Below, piece by piece: positions 1 to 50,256 of a stretch of DNA of 64,000 nucleotides (positions are counted from its first letter, which is position 1; each line of letters begins with the position of its first letter). The position numbers and the translations under genes were made by a program. Source of the stretch: Hufsiella arboris (GTDB lineage Bacteria > Bacteroidota > Bacteroidia > Sphingobacteriales > Sphingobacteriaceae); contig NZ_WVHT01000006.1 in the NCBI RefSeq assembly GCF_009834875.1, positions 1 to 64,000 on the forward strand, read 5' to 3'. The notes beneath the pieces were generated by a model, which saw nothing but the letters and a program-made list of their open reading frames with translations, did no database searches and was not told the origin of the DNA.

Positions 1-196
1 TATAGAAATATTTGCGCCATGCCACTATAGCACGGCCTGCTTCGGCGCTTAGCAGGTCGGCGTGAAATCCGGGCGCGGTGGGCCGAAAAGAAATGCGGGC
101 CATGCGTTAGACTGTGCGGCTGAAGCTTATTTCTTTTCTTGAACTTTTGGCAACTTTTGTTTCAAGACAAAAGTGGCTAGCCATCGGGCGGCAATG
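1..196. repeat. Right half of a hairpin-bounded intergenic element (U0)
   Basis: The window opens inside a repeat seen again at 25491, 26030, 26590 and 28320. From about 58 it carries the shared block GGCGTGAAATCCGGGCGCGG, then a hairpin (ACTTTTGT at 153-160, loop TTCAAG, ACAAAAGT at 167-174), then the terminal motif CTAGCCATCGGGCGGC from 177. The left end lies outside the window. Positions 197-295 hold a truncated spacer and no recognisable promoter. Confidence 0.75.
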
Positions 197-7744: not shown

Positions 7745-8153
7745 TAGACGGGGATATTGCAACTATCTAGGTTCAATTAATGGAACGGTGATAATGCCGA
7801 CCATAGGTAAAAATATGTGTGCACAACAGGAATATCATTGGGATACAATAATTCGTCATAAGCCATAGCAAACGCCTTGATGAGCTTGCGGCTGTGTTAT
7901 CCAGCGTTATTGCTAAGGCAGCGTGACATTAACATCGTCTGCCCTCGAAGATCGTGTTTCACAATCCCAACGAGTATACCCGAATTATCGCTGCCAAAGG
8001 TGATTGGGAGCCGTTTCAGTTAGCCCAAGAGGTCCTGCGCCAATAAATTCTTAGTGCCGAGGAAACGGCCAATATGGACTCATACCCTATGCATCATCAG
8101 AAAAATTCCAAGTTTGTAATGCGGCGGCTGATTTATTCGGCAGATTAACACCA
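7745..8153 (+). other. Gene-free stretch with a likely coding remnant
   Basis: No intact gene is seen. A short frame ending at the TAA near 8046 reads KIVFHNPNEYTRIIAAKGDW and on to AQEVLRQ. It looks like the C-terminal end of a degraded protein of unknown family. The segment lies immediately upstream of the GC-rich defence operon and may mark an old insertion boundary. Confidence 0.3.
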
Positions 8154-8183
8154 TTTGACATTCCATACGCTTGTTTACTTTTG
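8154..8183 (+). promoter_or_regulatory. Bacteroidota-type promoter for the defence operon
   Basis: TTTG at 8154-8157 and TACTTTTG at 8176-8183 are separated by 18 bases. This matches the TTTG-N19-TAnnTTTG consensus of the primary sigma factor of Bacteroidota. It would start transcription near 8190, about 55 bases before the ATG at 8246. Confidence 0.5.
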
Positions 8184-8245
8184 TGGTTGCGTATTATTGA
8201 GAAAAATTGGTGTATTTTGCAGCAAGATTCTTATTATAACCGAAT

Positions 8246-9286
8246 ATGATCATCCGGCCGCTGCCCGCTTTTAACGGCGACGCTATCCTCGTTTCTTTTC
8301 AACATCATGACAAAACGGTTAACATCCTGATCGATGGTGGTGTGCCCCGTACCTATCAGCGTGCTTTAAAACCTTTACTGAAAGAATTGCAAGAAGCTGG
8401 ACAACCGATCGACCTGCTGGTCGTGACCCATATCGATGATGATCATATCGGCGGCATCAAGGCACTTTACGAAGACACCGCGTTGGACCGCTCCCTGATC
8501 AAAAGGGTTTGGTTCAACTCCGGCAAATTACTGTCCCGTCACTTCCGGACGCCTGAAGACAAAAGCCGGGAAGTGGAGGTTATCCCCGATGATACGACAG
8601 AGATGAGCGTGCGGCAGGGCCTGACCCTGGAGGCCGAACTGGAAAAACAGTCGGGCTGGGTACAGCAAGTCATCCTGGCTGGCTATGCCGAAGCGTTTTA
8701 CGGTGCCGAGATCAAGGTGCTGTCACCCCGCGAGCCGATGCTCAAAAAATTGAACAAGCGCTGGGAAACCGAAGAGGCCAAACAAACACAAATGTCAGGC
8801 GGGGACCACGATGATTTTCAGTATACCATCGCCGAACTACTGGCCCGTGATTTTCAGGAAGATACGGCCGTGCCGAATGGCAGCGCCATCGCTTTTTTGA
8901 TAACGCTGAATGGTTTGCATTATTTGTTCCTGGCCGATGCCCACCCTAGTCAGATCGAGGCCAGTTTACGGGCACTGGGCTACAGTGAAGAGCACCGGCT
9001 TTGCGCAGAATTTGTCAAGGTCTCGCACCATGCCAGCAAGTTCAATACGAGCCCCGGATTGCTGGATATCATCCGTAGTCCGCATTTTTTTGTCAGCACT
9101 GATGGCGGCGCGCATGGGTTGCCCAACAAAGAACCGCTCGCCCGGATCATCGCGGCCAACCCCGGCGTGACCCTGCACTTTAACTATGAGGAGATCGCCG
9201 GAAAAATATTCTCTCCGGAAGACTACGGGAGCCATACCTTTACCCTAAAGCACAGTATGGGAATTGATTATTTATTTGAGGGTTGA
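8246..9286 (+). CDS. MBL-fold hydrolase, first gene of ABC-3C/Lamassu-like system
   Basis: A 346-residue metallo-beta-lactamase-fold protein of the ComEC/Rec2-like branch. The NGDAILVSF start is typical. The metal motif reads T-H62-I-D64-D-D66-H67-IGG, a variant of HxHxDH with the second His replaced by Asp. Further metal ligands are likely at D231/H233 (ADAHPS) and H261/H262 (KVSHHASK), followed by a STDGGAHGLPNKEPL loop. Such proteins hydrolyse phosphodiester or other ester bonds; the substrate is unknown. It leads an operon with a protease, a middle component and an SMC-like ATPase, so it is inferred to be an effector or accessory enzyme of an anti-phage system. It has no signal peptide and is therefore cytoplasmic. 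Confidence 0.88.
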   Translation: MIIRPLPAFNGDAILVSFQHHDKTVNILIDGGVPRTYQRALKPLLKELQEAGQPIDLLVVTHIDDDHIGGIKALYEDTALDRSLIKRVWFNSGKLLSRHFRTPEDKSREVEVIPDDTTEMSVRQGLTLEAELEKQSGWVQQVILAGYAEAFYGAEIKVLSPREPMLKKLNKRWETEEAKQTQMSGGDHDDFQYTIAELLARDFQEDTAVPNGSAIAFLITLNGLHYLFLADAHPSQIEASLRALGYSEEHRLCAEFVKVSHHASKFNTSPGLLDIIRSPHFFVSTDGGAHGLPNKEPLARIIAANPGVTLHFNYEEIAGKIFSPEDYGSHTFTLKHSMGIDYLFEG

Positions 9287-14234: not shown

Positions 14235-14586
14235 TTCACCCTATGTCGAGCAAATTTACATAAGCTGAAAATTTTTCGAACTTATTAAATGAAAAATTAT
14301 CAATAATATCGTTGGATTGCCTTTAAAATCAATGACTTACATGAATTTTATTTTGGTAATTTAGCTTTTGTACGCCAAATATTTCAGGATATGAATGTAA
14401 AGTTACTCCCCCTAGCTGCCGCAAGCGTCCCGCTTGTGTAATTCCGTTTAAAATTATTTCAAAGTATTGTTCTTTTTGGTATACGAGCTTACGCATCCCG
14501 GACTTTTGATAAAGGCAGGTTTGTCAGAATTGACTCCTTCGGAGAAACCCGAATTCAATTCTTAAAAATGCCTTTCTAAATATATC
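14235..14586. other. AT-rich gene-free stretch after the defence operon
   Basis: No gene is seen. Composition drops sharply to AT-rich after the ATPase stop. A small hairpin CAAGCG-TCC-CGCTTG lies near 14423. A longer imperfect inverted repeat (AGAATTGA near 14527, TCAATTCT near 14558) encloses CTCCTTCGGAG. These resemble decayed palindromic repeats rather than a terminator, as no T-run follows. Confidence 0.4.
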
Positions 14587-14809
14587 GAAGAGCGATATAA
14601 TCAGTTTCGTTGCTTTCCAGGTTCCCGGAAAATTAGCTGTAATCATTTATACGCTAAACGTGTAACATCGTCATTCGTTTCCTCTTCCGTCCAAAGCTTC
14701 TTTAAATCGAACTACAAGCGGAAGACAATTAAACAACAAACGGCAGATCAACGGCAAATGAACGGCAAATGGGTATTGTTTGACCGAATCTAAGTACTAT
14801 CTTTAAGCT

Positions 14810-15106
14810 ATGGGAATAGTAAAAAGAAACGATATCACAACCGGCTTAAGTGGCGCTATCAACAAGCAGCTTGTTTTTAAGCAGTACAAGCACGGAACAG
14901 TGGTGACCAAATATCCTGACAGGAGCAAGGTAAAGCTCAGCGAAAAACAGGTAGCCGCAAACGAACGATTTAAGCTCGCCGTTGAATACGCCCGTGCAAT
15001 ACTCGCCGACCCGGAAAAGAAAGCCGCGTTTGCCAAAAAACTTCCGGAAGGAAAGACGGTGTATTACGCTGCCCTGTCTGAATACCTGAAGGAGAATAGG
15101 GGCTGA
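14810..15106 (+). CDS. Conserved 98-residue protein of unknown function, paralogue 1
   Basis: A 98-residue basic protein, MGIVKRNDITTGLSGAINKQ at the start and GKTVYYAALSEYLKENRG at the end, with no signal peptide or membrane segment. A lysine/arginine-rich first half (KQYKHGTVVTKYPDRSKVKLSEKQ) precedes a helical second half (AVEYARAILADPEKKAAFAKKL). The second copy at 20932 differs at only five positions, and most DNA differences are silent. Both are therefore under coding selection or recently duplicated. I do not recognise the family. The charge pattern would suit nucleic-acid binding, but this is a guess. Each copy is followed by the same type of hairpin-bounded element, so it may be a cargo or helper gene of that repeat. 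Confidence 0.75.
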   Translation: MGIVKRNDITTGLSGAINKQLVFKQYKHGTVVTKYPDRSKVKLSEKQVAANERFKLAVEYARAILADPEKKAAFAKKLPEGKTVYYAALSEYLKENRG

Positions 15107-15167
15107 ACGGTTAACATCTCCTGTCTCGTCCTCGCATGTTACCAGCCGTGTACCCACTTCTTTTAGC

Positions 15168-15752
15168 CACTCATGCCGTGGAGGCATTTACTTTTTTTCT
15201 GCAGTCAAAAAAAGTAAACAAAAAAGTCCGCGGCTGCCGGATATTTGTCGTTAATCCTCAATGATTTTTTAATGCGCTGTTCCGAGCCGTGTGAATTGTA
15301 TTGCAACCATTAAACGGCTCTGCAACACTCGCGGAATGCGCTGACTGTCTGCGTCAATGAAAGGTCCTTCGAAAAAATCATTGGCCTTCACTTCCAAATC
15401 TCCGAAGGCCGTTCCTTGCTATCAGAGGTCGAAACGGTATGAACGATGGTTCCTGGCACTGCGCCAAATCCGTTCAGTAAGAATTGCCAGAACCGAAGTA
15501 CGATCAATCCGCAAGTGCCGGCGTAGCATTAAAAAACAGGAGCAGCAAAGATCAAAAATCACTGCCAAGCCTATAGCGAATGCGGTTTTATGTTGGAGTT
15601 TGTAAATACTTTCATAACGCTGAGCCGAATAAAAATAAGCGCTGTTGTTTTTAAAGCGTGCTGATGGATATGTGTGAAAGGCACCTAAGCGGATTGGAAA
15701 GGCTTTTGTTTACTTTTGGCCTTTTCAAAAGTAAATGCCCTGCCGGCAGGAG
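15168..15752. repeat. Hairpin-bounded element D1 (noncoding)
   Basis: The left end is CACTCATGCCGTGGAGGCA followed by a perfect 12 bp hairpin (TTTACTTTTTTT at 15187-15198, AAAAAAAGTAAA at 15207-15218). The right end is a 10 bp hairpin (TTTACTTTTG at 15709-15718, CAAAAGTAAA at 15726-15735) followed by a degraded inverted copy of the left end. The interior has no gene. It shares CCGCGGCTGC, TTTGTCGT.AATCCTCAAT and CTTCCAAATCTCCGAAGGCC blocks with the elements at 21300, 25721, 26249 and 35181. From 15753 to 15943 nothing further is recognised. Confidence 0.85.
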
Positions 15753-20617: not shown

Positions 20618-20710
20618 GGTTTAAGTCTTCCGAAGAGCGACTTAAATCTTCTTACGGCACCAGGACTCTGTCCGGCTCGTGGCGCTACAAAAGTTCAACC
20701 GGCACAACAT
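20618..20710. repeat. REP-like element derived from the 3' end of a RAYT gene
   Basis: The hairpin GGTTTAAGTC (20618-20627) / GACTTAAATC (20639-20648) is followed by GGCACCAGGACTCTGTCCGG and then by CTACAAAAGTTCAACCGGCA, which encodes the last codons (VPVELL stop) of the RAYT at 28708. The order is the same as at the intact RAYT, so this is a detached RAYT end. Confidence 0.8.
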
Positions 20711-20931
20711 ACAGAAGAGTGATATAAGCAGTTTTGTGCTTTCCAGGTTCCCGGAAATAAGCTGTAAGCAGTTAAGTACTACGTGTAACATCGTCATTCG
20801 TTTCCTCTTCCGTCCAAAGCTTCTTTAAATCGAACTACAAGCGAAAGACAATTAAACAACAAACGGCAGATCAACGGCAAATGAACGGCAAAGAGTATTG
20901 TTTGACCGAATCTAAGTACTATCTTTAAGCT

Positions 20932-21228
20932 ATGGGAATAGTAAAAAGAAACGATATCACAACCGGCTTAAGCGGCGCGATTAACAAGCAGATTGTTTTT
21001 AAGCAGTATAAAAGCAAGACGGTGGTTACCAAATATCCCGACAGGAGCAAAGTAAAACTCAGCGAAAAACAGGTTGCCGCAAACGAACGATTTAAGCTCG
21101 CCGTTGAATACGCACGTGCAATACTCGCCAACCCGGAAAAAAAAGCCGCGTTTGCCAAAAAACTTCCGGAAGGAAAGACAGTGTATTACGCTGCCCTGTC
21201 TGAATACCTGAAGGAAAATAGGGATTAA
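20932..21228 (+). CDS. Conserved 98-residue protein of unknown function, paralogue 2
   Basis: Near-identical to the protein at 14810. The five differences are I for L at residue 21, SK for HG at 28-29, N for D in ILANPEKK, and D for G at the last residue. It has the same basic first half and helical second half, with no export signal. The leader sequence is conserved right up to the ATG (TAAGTACTATCTTTAAGCT), so the whole transcription unit was copied. The function is not recognised. Conservation of the frame despite drift in flanking DNA argues that it is a real gene rather than repeat noise. Confidence 0.75.
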   Translation: MGIVKRNDITTGLSGAINKQIVFKQYKSKTVVTKYPDRSKVKLSEKQVAANERFKLAVEYARAILANPEKKAAFAKKLPEGKTVYYAALSEYLKENRD

Positions 21229-21299
21229 ACGGTTAGCGTCCTCCCGCCGTCACTGTCTCCTCCTCGCATGTTGCCTACTGTGTACCCACTTCTTTTCGC

Positions 21300-21884
21300 C
21301 ACTCATGCCGTGGAGGCATTTACTTTTTTCTACAGTCAAAAAAGTAAACAAAAAGTCCGCGGCTTCAGATATTTGTCGTAAATCCTCAATAAATCTTTTA
21401 AGCGCATGTTCCGAGCCGTGGGAATGTTTGTGCAAAATTTAACGGTGCTGCACCACTCGCGGAAAACGCTGATGGTTGTGATTTTTGATCGTGTTATGCA
21501 GAAGATTTATTGGTCTTTACTTCCAAATCTCCGAAGGCCGTTCCTTACTATCCAATGTCTGAACGGTATGAACGATGGTTCCTGGCACCGCGCCAAATCC
21601 GTTCAGTAAGGACTGCCAGAACCGAAGTACGATCAATCCGCAAGTGCCGGAGTAGCATTAAAAACAGGAGCAGAAAAGATCAAAAATCACTGCCAAGCCT
21701 ATAGCGAATGCGGTTTTATGTTGGAGTTTGCAACTACTTTCATAACGGCTCTGCCGAATAAAAATAAGCGCTGTCGTTTTTTAATGCGTGCTGATGGATA
21801 TGAGCTAACGGCACCTAAGCGGATTGAAAAGGCTTTTGTTTACTTTTGGCCTTTTCAAAAGTAAATGCCCTCACGGCATGAGTG
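21300..21884. repeat. Hairpin-bounded element D2 (best preserved)
   Basis: The 24 bp ends at 21300-21323 and 21861-21884 are inverted repeats with a two-base swap; the outer part reads CACTCATGCCGTG. Just inside each lies a hairpin: TTTACTTTTTT/AAAAAAGTAAA (21319-21348) on the left and TTTACTTTTG/CAAAAGTAAA (21839-21865) on the right. The 585 bp contain no credible gene. Interior blocks match D1 and, more loosely, the U elements at 25.7-28.5 and 35.2 kb. From 21885 to 22004 nothing further is seen. Confidence 0.88.
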
Positions 21885-25490: not shown

Positions 25491-25720
25491 TTGTCATTTG
25501 CGTCATGCAGGTAGGCGTGAAATCCGGGCGCGGTGGGTTGAAAAGAAATGCGGGCCAAGCGTGTGACAGTGCGGCTGAAGCTTATTTCTTTTCTTGATTT
25601 TTGGGTACTTTTTATCAAGAAAAAGTACCTAGCCATCGGGCGGCAATGAGCCCGGCTAACATTCAATGTTTGCAAAAGTCGCTCATCAGAACGCTCGCTG
25701 ACATTCATGAATGTTTAGCC
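25491..25720. repeat. Right half of a hairpin-bounded element plus conserved spacer
   Basis: GGCGTGAAATCCGGGCGCGG and following blocks lead to a perfect 10 bp hairpin (GGTACTTTTT at 25604-25613, AAAAAGTACC at 25620-25629) and CTAGCCATCGGGCGGC. A 70-base spacer (CAATGTTTGCAAAAGTCGCT... TTCATGAATGTTTAGCC) then joins it to the next unit. The left half is missing; the copy abuts the permease stop. Confidence 0.85.
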
Positions 25721-26177
25721 TTCATAGCCAGGCAGGCCTAGATACTTTTTTCTACAGCAAAAAAAGTATCCAAAAACGCCGCGGCTGCTGAATCTTTGTC
25801 GTAAATCCTCAATAAATTGTTTGGGCGCATAGTTCGACTCCGCTCACCATGACAGGCACCGCACAATAAGTATTTTGAATGCTGAGCGGAGTCGAAGCAG
25901 GTCTTTACTTCCAAATCTTCAAAGGCCGGATCGTGCTTCGGAAAGGAACTGAATTGGAATGAATGTTTGTTTCCTACCGCTGATTAATGATTGTACAATT
26001 CCGTTATGGCATTACGTTATTCGGCGCCATGCAAGTAGGCGTGAAATCCGGGAGCGATGGGCTGAAAAGAAATGCGGGCCACGCGTGTGACAGTGCGGCT
26101 GAAGCTTATTTCTTTCCTTGAACTTTTGGATACTTTTGTTTCAAGACAAAAGTATCTAGCCATCGGGCGGCAATGAG
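25721..26177. repeat. Hairpin-bounded element U1
   Basis: The left end is TTCATAGCCAGGCAGGCCTA with an 11 bp perfect hairpin (GATACTTTTTT at 25741-25751, AAAAAAGTATC at 25760-25770). The right end is an 11 bp perfect hairpin (GATACTTTTGT at 26129-26139, ACAAAAGTATC at 26146-26156) followed by CTAGCCATCGGGCGGC. The two stems of this copy match each other in their variable outer part (GATAC). The middle is partly replaced by a second palindromic insert at 25833-25896. No protein gene is credible inside. Confidence 0.88.
25833..25896. repeat. 64 bp palindromic insert with 14 bp perfect arms
   Basis: TTCGACTCCGCTCA (25833-25846) and TGAGCGGAGTCGAA (25883-25896) are perfect inverted repeats around a 36-base loop. 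They replace the segment that other copies of the element carry here. Similar TTCGACTCCGCTCA hairpins are, from memory, frequent in Bacteroidota genomes. Confidence 0.8.
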
Positions 26178-26248
26178 CCCGGCTGACTTTCAATGTTTGC
26201 AAAAACCACTCATCAGAGCACTCTCTTACATTCATAAATAGTTTAGCC

Positions 26249-26793
26249 CTCATAGCCGGGCAGGCCTATTTACCTTTTCCTTCAGCTGAAAAGGTAACCC
26301 AAAAAGCCGCGACTGCTGAACCTTTGTCGTAAATACCTAATAAATTGTTTTTTGCGCATGTTCCGAGCCGTGGGAATGGAAGTGCAATTTGAAAGAACCC
26401 GCAACACTCGCGGAAAACGCTGATGCCTGTACGGACTTGAAAGGAACTGCAAACAATTTACTGGTCTTTACTTCCAAATCTTCAAAGGCCGGATCGTGCT
26501 TCGGAAAAGGTCTGTAATCATATAAGCGCTTGTTTCCTGCTGCTGATGAATGATCGTGCATTCCATTTTGGCACTGTTTCATTTGGCGCTTAGCAGGACG
26601 GCGTGAAGTCCGGGCGCGGTAGGCTGAAAAGAAATGCGGGCCAAGCGTGTGACAGTGCGGCTGAAGCTTATTTCTTTTCTTGAACTTTTGGCAACTTTTG
26701 TTTCAAGACAATGCCGAGCGTTAGCGAGACCATGAACACCAATAAAAAAATAAATGCTAGTGAATAACTGGCTAGCCATCGGGCGGCAATGAG
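26249..26793. repeat. Hairpin-bounded element U2
   Basis: The left end is CTCATAGCCGGGCAGGCCTA with a 10 bp hairpin (TTACCTTTTC from 26270, GAAAAGGTAA to 26297). The right end has AACTTTTG-TTTCAAGAC interrupted in its right arm by an inserted module at 26711-26770, then CTAGCCATCGGGCGGC at 26772. The spacer at 26178-26248 linking it to U1 is the conserved ~70 bp type. Interior blocks are CGCATGTTCCGAGCCGTGGG, CACTCGCGGAAAACGCTGAT and CTTCCAAATCTTCAAAGGCC. Confidence 0.87.
26711..26770. repeat. Nested ~60 bp module (copy 1 of 3)
   Basis: ATGCCGAGCGTTAGCGAGAC, then CATGAACACC, an A-rich run and TGAATAAC. It interrupts the right hairpin arm of U2. Related copies sit at 35713-35769 and 37571-37630, each time next to an element hairpin. 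Confidence 0.7.
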
Positions 26794-26919
26794 CCCGGCT
26801 AACGTTCATTGTTTGCAAAAGTCACTCATCAGGCTTAATTTACCCTTCCCAACGCTGATACCTGAAACTTAAACAAGTTCGGGTAAGTTTATTAACTTGG
26901 GATCTGGAAAGCTAACCCA

Positions 26920-28032
26920 ATGGAACCATTCGTATTAAATTTCGCTTTAAGTGCCGGCAGTGCATTAATGCTATGCTTTTTATTTCTATCTGATATACCC
27001 AAGGGAAACATCGGGGCAAACAAATGGCTGGGTGCGTTTTATTTTTGCCTTGCCTGTACTTTTTACCAGCTTTACATTGATAAGGCAGGATTGTCTAATG
27101 GTTTTCAAATACTGGTTTACTTTCTTGAACTATCCAGGTGGGCCGTTATGCCCTGCTTTTATTACGCCATTATAAATTTCACGGATCCGGAATATAGCAA
27201 CAAAAGAGCTTGGGTGCATTTTATTCCGAGTTTAGGCTATCTTCTATATTCATTGAGATATATCGTACCTGGTTTTTTCGGATATCCTCAGCAACTTCCC
27301 GAATTTCCTTTTCTAATATTCATCCTTCGTTATTTCTTTACAGGTCAGCTTATCTTTTATTGGCTTTTATCGTTTCGGAAGCTTTCTGCTCATAGAAAAT
27401 ACCTGCTCCAGGTAGCATCGTCTATTGAACGTATCGATCTGAATTGGTTAAAGAACCTGATGCTGATATCGCTTGTGATGATTTTGTTAAGGTTTATCCC
27501 CGACAAAGGAGGTTTCGTAAACAATTTTATTCCTTTGCTCTATTTCTCGGGGATGATATTCCTTGCTTATTATTCAATCCGGCAACAGCCAATTTTTGCT
27601 ATAGCACTTCCGCAATCTGCTCCTTCAAGTGATCATCAAAGTACGAAGGAAGTTTTTGAGAGGTTGGAAGTACAGCAAGTGGAGGCGCTTCGGGCACGGG
27701 TAACGAAAGTTACCAGGGAGAAAAAGCTCTACCTTGATCCTTCGCTTTCCCTGCCAGCTTTGTCAGGTCAAATAGGGATTGGTGTTCAGGATTTGTCGTA
27801 TGTGCTTAACAACGGACTGGGGAAAAATTTTTACGAGTTTATAAATGAATTACGGGTGGAGGAAGCAAAAGCACTTCTGGAATCAGAAAAGGTAAAAAGC
27901 CTGGATATGCTCGGTATTGCTACGCATGCAGGGTTCAACTCAAAAACCACTTTTAATACTACCTTCAAAAAGCTTACAGGACTTACTCCTACTGAGTATC
28001 TAAAATCCCGTTCTCAATCAATGACTTTATAG
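26920..28032 (+). CDS. AraC-family regulator with membrane-embedded N-terminus
   Basis: A 370-residue protein. Residues 1-225 contain about seven hydrophobic helices (e.g. FALSAGSALMLCFLFLS, FPFLIFILRYFFTGQLIFYWLL, FIPLLYFSGMIFLAYYSI). A linker precedes an HTH_18 domain at about 265-365 (LDPSLSLPALSGQIGIGVQDLSYVLNNGLGKNFYEFINELRV and MLGIATHAGFNSKTTFNTTFKKLTGLTPTEYLKSR). It probably senses a membrane or periplasmic cue and activates transcription while anchored. The gene is isolated among repeats, with a REP-like remnant (CTGAAACTTAAAC near 26863) just upstream. A decayed copy of its last ~105 bases lies at 29565. Confidence 0.88.
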   Translation: MEPFVLNFALSAGSALMLCFLFLSDIPKGNIGANKWLGAFYFCLACTFYQLYIDKAGLSNGFQILVYFLELSRWAVMPCFYYAIINFTDPEYSNKRAWVHFIPSLGYLLYSLRYIVPGFFGYPQQLPEFPFLIFILRYFFTGQLIFYWLLSFRKLSAHRKYLLQVASSIERIDLNWLKNLMLISLVMILLRFIPDKGGFVNNFIPLLYFSGMIFLAYYSIRQQPIFAIALPQSAPSSDHQSTKEVFERLEVQQVEALRARVTKVTREKKLYLDPSLSLPALSGQIGIGVQDLSYVLNNGLGKNFYEFINELRVEEAKALLESEKVKSLDMLGIATHAGFNSKTTFNTTFKKLTGLTPTEYLKSRSQSMTL

Positions 28033-28098
28033 AAAAGATCCACTATTAGGTCGCAGCGAGACGTTACGACCAGTTAAGACTTTATTTTTATGTTAGCC

Positions 28099-28464
28099 TT
28101 CATAGCCAGGCAGGCCTAGTCCTTTTTCTACAGCAAAAAAGGACCAAAATACCGCCGGCTTCACCGGTCTTCAGCTAAAAGTTCATGCTGATGGCAAGAG
28201 CGCAGCGAAGAACCGTGGGAATGGAAGCGGTTATTGATCGTTACTACTCCACTCGCTTCATCTGCTTGGCAATGCAAAATTAATGTATTTGCATCGCGTG
28301 GCACTGCTTTGGCGCCATACAGGACGGCGTGAAATCCGGGCGCGGTGGGCTGAAAAGAAATGCGGGCCACGCGTCGACTGTGCGGCTGAAGCTTGTTTCT
28401 TTTCTTGAACTTTTGGCAACTTTTGTTTCAAGACAAAAGTGGCTAGCCATCGGGCGGCAATGAG
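28099..28464. repeat. Hairpin-bounded element U3
   Basis: The left end is TTCATAGCCAGGCAGGCCTA with a 9 bp hairpin (GTCCTTTTT at 28119-28127, AAAAAGGAC at 28136-28144). The right end is an 8 bp hairpin (ACTTTTGT at 28419-28426, ACAAAAGT at 28433-28440) followed by CTAGCCATCGGGCGGC. The interior left part (CCGCCGGCTTCACCGGTCTT, TCAGCTAAAAGTTCATGCTG) is a variant shared with 37620-37690, not with U1/U2. Confidence 0.85.
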
Positions 28465-28533
28465 CCCGGCTAACATTCAATGTTGCAAAAGTCGCTCATC
28501 AGAACACTCTCTAACATTTAAATACGTTTGACC

Positions 28534-28638
28534 CTCATGGCCTGGCAGGCCTATTTCTTTTCTCTTGAAAGAAAAGAAACAAAAGTTCAAGGCTGCTGAA
28601 TCTTTGTCGCAAATTCTAATTAAATTGTGTTTTGCTAG
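28534..28638. repeat. Left end of hairpin-bounded element U4, truncated by a RAYT element
   Basis: CTCATGGCCTGGCAGGCCTA is followed by a 10 bp hairpin (TTTCTTTTCT at 28554-28563, AGAAAAGAAA at 28570-28579) and GGCTGCTGAATCTTTGTCGC. The conserved ~70 bp spacer at 28465-28533 joins it to U3. The element stops where the RAYT end begins at 28639. Confidence 0.8.
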
Positions 28639-29365
28639 GCTGGTTTAAGTCTTCCGTAGGGCGACTTAAATCTTTTTATGGCACCAGGACTCTGTCCGGC
28701 TATCTGACTACAAAAGTTCAACCGGCACTAAACCCGCCTGTTGCCCGCAATAATCAACGGCACTGCTGTATTTATAATCCCAGGCATTCCAAACAATACC
28801 CGCTCTAACCGGATTCTCATGTAAGTAATTCAGACGCTGCTCGAGCATCAAATTAGTACTCAATTCTATAGGATGATTATCTTGTTGCCAAAACTGGTAG
28901 ACCTTGTTGTTTGTGTTTCTCGCTCCAGCGCGTTTAAACATCCATATAAGCCAATCTTTGCGACTTTCTTGGACGTTCTCTTCAACTGCCGCTATGATCA
29001 TCCTGCTTGTGTATTTTTTGAAGTCACGAACGATGGCCGCGAGTTCAAATCCTTCTTTGGCTGAAATAATCAAATGCACGTGGTTACTCATAATCACCCA
29101 GGCATGTAACCGTAATCCTTTTTCATTTGTACAAAATCTGAGACTTTCAACCAGTATTTCTTTATAGCATTCTCTGCTAAATACATCAATCCAGTTAACT
29201 ACTGTACAGGTGATGAAATGAACTCGCGTATTATCGCCGAACCGATATCTTGTTGCCATGTTGAAAATGAGAACCCAATTTACTCTTTTCCTGCAAAAGA
29301 AGCCGGACGGAGTCCTGTTGTCATTTAAATCATTTAAGAGCGCTGCGCTGAACTCTTAAACGAGC
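28639..29365 (-). mobile_element. RAYT transposable element with inverted REP-like ends
   Basis: Both ends carry a hairpin and an inner inverted repeat. The left end is TTTAAGTC (28644-28651)/GACTTAAA (28663-28670) then CCAGGACTCTGTCCGGC. The right end, read from the other strand, is TTTAAGAG/CTCTTAAA (29333-29360) then CAGGACTCCGTCCGGC. The two stems differ at the inner bases but each stays paired. The element encloses only the transposase. The outermost bases GCTGG and GCTCG also mirror each other. A clear target duplication was not found. Confidence 0.85.
28708..29259 (-). CDS. REP-associated tyrosine transposase (RAYT, Y1/HUH family)
   Basis: A 183-residue single-strand DNA transposase of the IS200/IS605-like Y1 superfamily. 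The HUH metal motif is H60-V-H62 in VIMSNHVHLII, and the catalytic tyrosine is Y83 in RDFKKYTSRMI. The C-terminal RLNYLHENPVRAGIVWNAWDYKYSSA block is diagnostic of the REP-associated branch. It nicks and rejoins ssDNA at palindromic REP sequences. Both ends of this gene are flanked by inverted REP-like hairpins, and detached ends occur at 20618 and 33347. All catalytic residues are present, so it may be active. Confidence 0.93.
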   Translation of the reverse strand: MATRYRFGDNTRVHFITCTVVNWIDVFSRECYKEILVESLRFCTNEKGLRLHAWVIMSNHVHLIISAKEGFELAAIVRDFKKYTSRMIIAAVEENVQESRKDWLIWMFKRAGARNTNNKVYQFWQQDNHPIELSTNLMLEQRLNYLHENPVRAGIVWNAWDYKYSSAVDYCGQQAGLVPVELL

Positions 29366-29524: not shown

Positions 29525-29669
29525 CACCTGAAACTTAAGCCAGTAGGCTGAACTCTTAAACGAGCATGGGGTTTAATTCAAAACTACTTTTAACACTACC
29601 TTCAAAAAACTTACAGGGCTACTCCTAGCCTGTATCTAAAATCTCGTTCCCAGTAACTCCTTCATAGGG
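29525..29669 (+). pseudogene. REP remnant joined to a decayed 3' end of the AraC gene
   Basis: CTGAAACTTAAGCCAGTAGG and GAACTCTTAAACGAGC are pieces of the RAYT ends. From 29565 to 29669 the sequence matches the last ~105 bases of the AraC gene at 26920-28032 (GGTTTAATTCAAAACTACTT, CTACCTTCAAAAAACTTACA, TATCTAAAATCTCGTTC), with frame-breaking changes. The remaining bases to 29754 show nothing. Confidence 0.8.
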
Positions 29670-35180: not shown

Positions 35181-35792
35181 CTCATGGCCGGGTAGGCCTA
35201 TTTCTTTTCTCTTGAAAGAAAAGAAACAAAAGTTCAAGGCTGCTGAATCTTTGTCGTAAATACCTGATAAATTGTTTTGGCGCATGTTCCGAGCCGTGGG
35301 AATGGAATTGCAAACTGAGCGTTTGTACAACACTCGCGGAAAACGCTGATGCCTGTGCGGATTCGAAAGGAACTGCATACAATTTATTGGTCTTTACTTC
35401 CAAATTTTCAGAGGCCGGTTCGTGCTTGGGAAAGAGCTGTGGTGTTATGGGCGTTTGCTTCCTGCCGCTGATTGATGGAACTACTGATATTATCGGCACT
35501 GCCCCGACCGGCGTTTGTGGCGTTAAGGAAACACGGTGATGCGGCTTTGTAAGAATGCCCAAACCGGGTAAAAGTCAAGCGATCAGCGAGCGTAGCAGAA
35601 TCGGCCATAAAGCAGTTTCATTTCTGCGGCTCTGATTGCGCCAGCCGGATCAACGGGTTTTTAGTAACAAAAATTTGAAGCCTTGACTTTTTCGGCACTT
35701 TGTTTCAAGACAATGCCGACCGCAGGGAGACCATGAACACCTTTAAAAATATAGATGCTTGAATAACGGGCTAGCTATCGGGCGGCAATGAG
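35181..35792. repeat. Hairpin-bounded element U5
   Basis: The left end is CTCATGGCCGGGTAGGCCTA with a 10 bp hairpin (TTTCTTTTCT at 35201-35210, AGAAAAGAAA at 35217-35226). The right end is a degenerate hairpin (CGGCACTTTGT...ACAATGCCG near 35690-35718) containing the nested module at 35713-35769, then CTAGCTATCGGGCGGC at 35771. Interior blocks match U2 (CGCATGTTCCGAGCCGTGGG, CACTCGCGGAAAACGCTGAT). The decayed left half of a further copy (U6) follows at about 35821-35990. Confidence 0.83.
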
Positions 35793-37523: not shown

Positions 37524-37690
37524 CTCATAGGCGGGCAGCCCTAGTTCTTTCCTTCAGCATGGAAAGAACCATGCCGGCCGCAGGGAGACCATTCATGCCT
37601 TTAAAAATTAATAAATCACAGATGAATAACAGCCGCCGGCTTCACCGATCTTCAGCTAAAAGTTCATGCTGATAGCGTGAGGGCAGCGAA
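37524..37690. repeat. Left half of a hairpin-bounded element (U7) with nested module
   Basis: CTCATAGGCGGGCAGCCCTA is followed by a 9 bp perfect hairpin (GTTCTTTCC at 37544-37552, GGAAAGAAC at 37561-37569), the nested module at 37571-37630, then the GCCGCCGGCTTCACCGATCT and TCAGCTAAAAGTTCATGCTG blocks also found in U3. The copy is truncated on the right. The rest of 37433-37768 holds nothing else. Confidence 0.78.
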
Positions 37691-49864: not shown

Positions 49865-49950
49865 TTTAATTACGATAAAAGCAACGGAGAGAAAAGATAG
49901 TCGAAAGAGAATATCTTATTCCAGCTTCAATCCCCGAAAGCTATGAATTT

Positions 49951-50125
49951 ATGTTGCTATGGCAGGTCTTCTGACTTTGCTCCCCTCAACCCTGTCTTCC
50001 CGTCCCGACTTGTCGGGACAGTGACTTTTAAGAATGGGTTTCAGTTTTGGAGCTTACAGCTGCGGGACAGTTTTGGATTTACACCAAATTCCCTTTTAAT
50101 CGTCGAACCAATTTCGGCGAACCAA
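49951..50125 (-). ncRNA. Cobalamin (B12) riboswitch
   Basis: Read on the minus strand, the leader has the conserved B12 core: GGGAATTTGGTGTAAATCC, then AAACTGTCCCGCAGCTGTAAG and, near the 3' side at 49961-49976, AGTCAGAAGACCTGCC, the B12 box. GTCCCGACAAGTCGGGAC forms a peripheral stem. It lies directly upstream of the BtuB-like gene and would lower its expression when cobalamin is plentiful. The bases between it and 50256 hold nothing else evident. Confidence 0.93.
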
Positions 50126-50256
50126 AAGCAAGGCAAAGTTAGTTATTGAGACGAGAAACCAAAATCTTTATTTTCAGTGAACTCGCACGTTGGTTTTCGA
50201 TTTATATATTGCTTTGCAAATAAACCGTTAACGAGAACCAGCCTGCAAGATACTGG

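Follow-up and report, generated by a model that had tools for sequence, protein, structure and literature searches.

What are the repeated hairpins at positions 25491-28638 of this stretch of Hufsiella arboris DNA, and what keeps their stems paired while the sequences change? The window (the whole 64,000-nucleotide stretch analyzed, from contig NZ_WVHT01000006.1) belongs to a Sphingobacteriaceae genome of 4.8 Mb in 56 contigs, here called G000. An earlier note on this DNA had described an array of noncoding elements bounded by hairpins and had proposed either a hairpin-ended non-autonomous mobile element or a structured RNA family. Our comparisons argue strongly that each end is a compound structure in which a stem, the pairing partner of its loop, and a short linker change jointly. 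The array is probably made of a non-autonomous, non-coding mobile repeat that is recognized by the fold of one strand.

The ends hold more structure than the earlier note saw. Read from outside to inside, an end consists of the first strand of a stem (S1, 9-12 bp), a loop of 6-8 nt, the returning strand S1', a linker of CAAAA plus one base, and the complement of the loop (S2'). Together, S1 and the predicted pairing of the loop with the sequence just inside (S2) have the geometry of an H-type pseudoknot. The outer arm terminates in CCTA in Sphingobacteriaceae only. The interval holds 8 ends, where about ten had been counted: 7 intact hairpins and 1 right end split by an insert. All five stem pairs listed at the time are present (25604-25629, 26129-26156, 26270-26297, 28119-28144, and 28554-28579). 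The features of the interval are as follows.

25590..25635, minus strand: right end of the first (partial) element; hairpin 25604-25629, S1 GGTACTTTTT/AAAAAGTACC, loop CTTGAT, then linker and S2' ATCAAG.
25735..25784, plus strand: left end; hairpin 25741-25770, S1 GATACTTTTTT/AAAAAAGTATC, loop CTACAGCA.
25741..26156, no strand assigned: whole element of 416 bp, an inverted pair of ends, with a second palindromic repeat inside at 25833-25896.
26115..26162, minus strand: right end; hairpin 26129-26156, S1 GATACTTTTGT/ACAAAAGTATC, loop CTTGAA pairing with TTCAAG.
26263..26312, plus strand: left end; hairpin 26270-26297, S1 TTACCTTTTC/GAAAAGGTAA, loop CTTCAGCT.
26690..26789, minus strand: right end with its S1 arm split by a 60-bp insertion (26712-26771), a CAATGCCGAGCG...GCGAGACC module.
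28113..28158, plus strand: left end; hairpin 28119-28144, S1 GTCCTTTTT/AAAAAGGAC, loop CTACAGCA.
28403..28449, minus strand: right end; hairpin 28419-28440, core S1 ACTTTTGT/ACAAAAGT, loop CTTGAA/TTCAAG.
28548..28593, plus strand: left end; hairpin 28554-28579, S1 TTTCTTTTCT/AGAAAAGAAA, loop CTTGAA, S2' TTCAAG, linker CAAAAG (inner stem C, linker G).

CTAGCCATCGGGCGGC comes after 4 right ends in the interval. The palindromic repeat at 25833-25896 (TTCGACTCCGCTCACCAT/ATGCTGAGCGGAGTCGAA, 94% complementary) looks like an insertion within the element 25741-26156. Over the 64-kb window, there were 37 overlapping hairpin calls with stems of at least 9 bp, compared with 1-9 in Markov shuffles. The units themselves are non-coding, as had been claimed for their interiors, but the whole interval is not, since an AraC-type gene (26920-28032) sits between two units.

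Loops and their partners change jointly (CTTGAT/ATCAAG, CTTGAA/TTCAAG, CTTGAC/GTCAAG, CTTGGC/GCCAAG, CTTGCT/AGCAAG, and AAAAGGC/GCCTTTT), and some left ends in the window (loops CTACAGCA and CTTCAGCT) have a weaker, farther S2 partner. The earlier note had suggested collecting all copies in the genome and testing their ends for covariation. A model of the ends (R1) gave at least 44 ends in G000, and 18 ends of this genome had a covariation score of 0.728, compared with 0.203 after shuffling and no more than 0.29 when partners were slid. Because these 18 had been chosen as perfect hairpins, the unbiased tests are those on free positions and on copies found independently of a search pattern. For the free-position test, one genome per species was scanned with a pattern that fixed CTTTT, CTTGA, AAAAG, CAAAA, and TCAAG, and only positions outside the fixed pattern were counted in the 136 distinct copies among the matches listed. 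The free S1 pairs were 99, 100, 97, 91, 90, and 82% Watson-Crick, against 44, 44, 43, 79, 38, and 54% expected from column composition, and the free S2 pair was 98.5% Watson-Crick against 42%. G-T pairs made up 0-4% of S1 and S2. The outer 3-4 and inner 2 pairs of S1 vary and remain Watson-Crick. When 54 aligned copies were placed on the pseudoknot structure, 99.7% of cells were paired and covariation was 0.384, compared with 0.072 in shuffles and no more than 0.066 with slid partners. By these measures S1 and S2 covary over independent copies, as expected of an H-type pseudoknot, and the keeping of pairing through sequence change extends from this genome to the phylum.

The linker follows the stem as well. 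Its final base tracks the stem pair beside the CTTTT core: stem C goes with linker G in 13/13 copies and stem T with linker A in 44/44 (Fisher p 4e-13), while a stem G is accompanied by A in 42, G in 31, and C in 2. The rule was repeated in copies picked by homology or covariance model, independent of the search pattern, both in Sphingobacteriaceae (C to G in 10/10, T to A in 31/31) and in viral and high-copy genomes (8/8 and 7/8). Among units with a changed core, 9/9 have a matching linker: CTTTC/CAAAG (5), CTTCT/CAAGA (3, Propionigenium), and CCTTT/CCAAA (1). As read from these alignments, the linker is a position-by-position parallel complement of the S1 5' strand, the pattern that a third strand of purines would show when running antiparallel to S1'. 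The covariation is seen directly in the sequences, and from it we infer triplex formation by the linker. Immediately 5' of S1 stands T, C, or A; G is found there in 0/74 copies (18% background), so the first linker C stays unpaired, as though extension of the stem were avoided.

Two phage contigs with ~90% identity around the site have units in matching positions. The unit in L352 reads CTTCTTTTCT-CTTGAA-AGAAAAGAAG-CAAAAG-TTCAAG, and that in L350 reads ATACTTTCTG-CTTGAT-CAGAAAGTAT-CAAAGA-ATCAAG. They differ at 5 S1 pairs, 1 S2 pair, and 2 linker bases; each partner has changed too, and both linker differences obey the third-strand rule. These differences could reflect stepwise compensation or exchange of the block from S1 to S2', with the fold kept either way.

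A third phage, L351, is without the unit at this site, as are the outgroups, and its flanks are collinear with those of the occupied phages (5.6 kb at 89%, 2.3 kb at 94%). Likewise, a site occupied in genome G004 is a short gap at the orthologous position in its congeners G044 and G073. Gain of the unit is the simplest reading of these differences, whose joints are not placed to the base. The comparison with empty sites that the earlier note had proposed therefore yielded vacant orthologous sites, but not clean joints. Its suggestion that boundaries coincide with the hairpins fared similarly: flanks that differ between copies suggest an insertion boundary at the stem foot, but a base-exact joint is not established. 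Vacant sites within other repeats of one genome showed mosaics and stem-foot indels and no clean insertions. Between L013 (2289-2361) and L012 (near 6943), a 71-73 bp difference starts precisely at the S1 foot, like a hairpin excised at its base.

Inverted pairs bounded by hairpins, as first described, are the arrangement in Sphingobacteriaceae, where two units stand head-to-head in elements of 330-550 bp. Outside this family, a unit of ~165-195 bp combines a single pseudoknot with a long hairpin, and such units occur singly or in same-strand tandem. The hairpin, which comes after the pseudoknot in many genera, measures ~124-128 nt and is closed by GGC/GCC. Its three stems are unrelated in sequence between copies, whereas the internal loops GCTA/TTAACGC are conserved and the apical loop AACTCGCTNCGCTCARACAG is constant, mostly at 89-91 nt. 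G-T pairs make up 2.9% of its pairs, compared with 7.6% in shuffles. Two more hairpins, H2 in the Sphingobacteriaceae genome G059 and H0 (TCATNGCC), are no more than suggestive; H0 shows partial enrichment (~45% vs 27%), in a constant-loop test confounded by unrelated matches.

Model R1 matched 36/61 Sphingobacteriaceae genomes from 20/25 genera and found no copies in the same-genus genome G001, which is also too diverged for vacant-site comparison. A phylum-wide model (R2) at a strict cut-off matched 45/148 genomes from 32/83 genera. Copy number per genome ranges from 0 to at least 99, with 99 R2 matches in Propionigenium maris (Fusobacteria). Among the matches listed, those to the search pattern are mainly from Bacteroidota (Flavobacteria, Bacteroidales, Chitinophaga, Saprospiraceae, Balneolaceae, and others), and those outside it are from Ignavibacteriales, Neomarinimicrobiota, Patescibacteria-labelled genomes, and Propionigenium. 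Units also lie in 24 viral contig stretches, in the setting of head, portal, and terminase genes. In phage contigs L325/L326 (~8090-8450), a different repeat, CCTAACCCCTCTCC...GGAGAGGGG, flanks the units. Arrays occupy intergenic gaps between ordinary genes, and no orientation bias of units relative to genes was seen. Lewinella, Chryseobacterium, and others have same-strand tandem arrays of 300-600 bp. Loci L370/L371 of G222, the genome with the Chryseobacterium jejuense locus L255, hold 6 units ~400 bp apart and 3 units 600 bp apart, on one strand per array. An Rfam 15 covariance-model search gave no match above gathering score, and the openly accessible literature (subscription journals and supplements being outside the scope) yielded no description of the element.

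Further copies lie elsewhere in the window, including a second subfamily with a different loop.

137..183, minus strand: another end copy.
15187..15735, no strand assigned: second subfamily, inverted pair; S1 TTTACTTTTTTT and TTTACTTTTG, right-end loop AAAAGGC pairing with GCCTTT.
21319..21865, no strand assigned: second subfamily, inverted pair; S1 TTTACTTTTTT and TTTACTTTTG, right-end loop AAAAGGC pairing with GCCTTTT.
35195..35240, plus strand: another end; S1 TTTCTTTTCT.
37538..37583, plus strand: another end; S1 GTTCTTTCC.

The two second-subfamily elements each lie within a copy of a 1.2-kb duplication (14579-15752 and 20706-21882, 88% identity), which includes a 98-aa open reading frame. 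A cobalamin riboswitch is found at 49944-50141 on the minus strand (Rfam RF00174, 112 bits).

One candidate for what moves the repeat adjoins an end: a RAYT-like Y1 transposase gene at 28708-29259 on the minus strand (Pfam Y1_Tnp; motifs NHVH, WQ, and YLHENP) that resembles RAYT subclass 2.6, a mostly Bacteroidetes group reported to have atypical flanking structures (PMC6006769). Beyond the transposase gene, at 29569-29667, lies a piece of the 3' end of the AraC-type gene, 80% identical to 27931-28032. A Y1 (HUH) transposase of this subclass could be moving the repeats, which would make them REP/REPIN-type elements, and Y1_Tnp is indeed commoner in genomes with at least 3 ends (odds ratio 8.6, p 3e-4), being present in 14/16 high-copy genomes. 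However, G063 (37 ends) and G221 (16 ends) are without Y1_Tnp, 7 genomes have Y1 and no ends, and no end lies within ~1.5 kb of 31/32 Y1 loci (8/9 among the weak, RAYT-like ones). The window gene comes with a hairpin unlike those of the units (TTTAAGTC/GACTTAAA, 28642-28680), which recurs about every 180 bp in locus L022 of the same genome (C34:446.2-446.8 kb). The tetranucleotide GT[AG]G is absent from the hairpin foot, which varies, and the CTA that ends the outer arm in Sphingobacteriaceae is specific to that family. We regard this explanation as quite unlikely. Ordinary miniature inverted-repeat transposable elements (MITEs) of a DDE insertion sequence (IS), with long terminal inverted repeats and incidental hairpins, would account for the inverted ends and the 330-550 bp elements of Sphingobacteriaceae, but most Bacteroidota copies are single units or same-strand tandems, and a DDE transposase would need a conserved end sequence where here the sequence changes and the pairing stays. 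Near 120 copies we found no transposase gene bounded by unit ends, no autonomous IS with the same terminal inverted repeats, and no shared transposase; MITEs of this kind are very improbable. Guide RNAs (omega RNAs) of TnpB/IS605 elements contain pseudoknots, and the units might be their remnants. We give this almost no credence, as it is contradicted by the TnpB domain PF07282, which had no match in 15/17 many-copy genomes and exceeded the cut-off only in G220.

The remaining alternatives concern the pairing itself. In a structured non-coding RNA family (small RNA, ribozyme, or untranslated-region element) spread with host genes, pairing would be selected in the RNA. The conserved internal and apical loops resemble binding sites, and an H-type pseudoknot whose A-rich linker adjoins a T-rich stem resembles known RNA triple-helix pseudoknots. 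Set against these likenesses are the near absence of G-U pairs in S1 and S2, the lack of orientation bias to flanking genes, differing upstream flanks and hence no conserved promoter seen, the absence of Rfam matches, the head-to-head inverted pairs in one family, and the units in phage intergenic gaps. The RNA alternative raised in the earlier note is thus disfavored, and we judge it unlikely, although less so than the others. It is improbable, too, that the stems stay perfect because template switching at replication corrects palindromes, and not through selection, in a repeat spread by other means. Such correction accounts for perfect Watson-Crick S1 stems without G-T and for indel breaks at stem feet, but it leaves unexplained both the S2 pairing across S1' and the linker, and a linker that tracks the stem in the parallel, not antiparallel, sense.

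We return to a mobile repeat recognized by the fold of one strand. Its mobility is well supported, if indirectly, and the proposal of a non-autonomous mobile element fits the presence and absence at orthologous sites, the orientation-neutral placement, and the range of copy number. The fold most likely acts as single-stranded DNA; the near absence of G-T pairs, the free orientation of units, and the lack of relation among their flanks favor DNA over RNA. The fold would form in single-stranded DNA during replication or transfer or in phage DNA, and an enzyme supplied in trans by the host or a phage would bind it and probably also cut near the stem foot. In Sphingobacteriaceae, two units head-to-head would serve as element ends and accumulate as arrays. 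Several observations weigh against this reading. The neighbors of 120 loci share no protein and no recurrent mobility family, although it is this result, together with the inconsistency of Y1 and TnpB, that points to a trans-acting enzyme. The vacant sites are not clean, with a 35-bp replacement in L351 and another repeat in G061, and no target-site duplication or base-exact boundary was found in occupied and vacant pairs, which are too diverged at the joints. Copies within G059 are just ~75-93% identical, so no very recent burst is seen. The long hairpin is predicted to be only modestly more stable than shuffled sequence (minimum free energy z 0 to -2.3), and its G-T depletion would also fit a well-paired RNA. 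Finally, the block from S1 to S2' may be swapped by recombination and not changed step by step.

A bolder version, which we offer tentatively as a possibility short of a probable one, is selfish DNA whose sole identity would be a pseudoknot of three strands formed in single-stranded DNA. The stem, the partner of its loop, and the third-strand linker would evolve as one exchangeable tag, read by a structure-specific enzyme, spreading through Bacteroidota chromosomes and phages and into Fusobacteria. Found by the strict model in 32/83 sampled genera, the repeat is a common, unnamed component of a major bacterial phylum and its phages. It explains assembly-breaking arrays, and spurious small genes are often annotated where the units lie. 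Covariation of three strands in a dispersed genomic repeat would be one of few natural cases that show selection on a triple-contact pseudoknot, probably in DNA. A search for a new structure-specific recombinase or nuclease would also have a definite target in this repeat.

Several known systems share parts of this description. REP/REPIN sequences with their RAYT (TnpA-REP) are likewise intergenic, high-copy, non-coding, palindromic, and patchy, with no target-site duplication seen, but here there are a pseudoknot with a third-strand linker, a hypervariable stem without GT[AG]G at its foot, and a RAYT that is not adjacent and apparently not required. The ends of IS200/IS605 elements (Y1 HUH, single-stranded transposition) are similar in principle, bearing structure and leaving no duplication, of which none was seen here; in contrast, no transposase is bounded by the units, and many-unit genomes can be without Y1_Tnp. 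Integron attC sites also keep structure as sequence varies and form directional arrays. Our unit stem is without RYYYAAC/GTTRRRY boxes, no cassette genes lie between units, and no integrase stood beside the arrays examined, which were not part of a systematic integrase search. The STAXI motif (Weinberg et al. 2010, PMC2864571) consists of tandem pseudoknots that have been proposed to function, possibly, as single-stranded DNA, but differs in its host group (Enterobacteriales), UUCG loops, location near DNA-processing genes, sequence, and anatomy, and our element had no Rfam match. Porphyromonas MITEs such as BrickBuilt are, like it, non-autonomous Bacteroidota repeats with predicted stem-loops, but have terminal repeats like those of known IS and a minisatellite interior, and the parts of the source consulted describe no pseudoknot or covariation (PMC4596501). 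As the earlier note had supposed, the element matches no named class: it shows the diagnostic features of none of the known families examined (Rfam, REP/REPIN, MITE, attC, and TnpB), and is REP- or MITE-like in being non-autonomous and dispersed.

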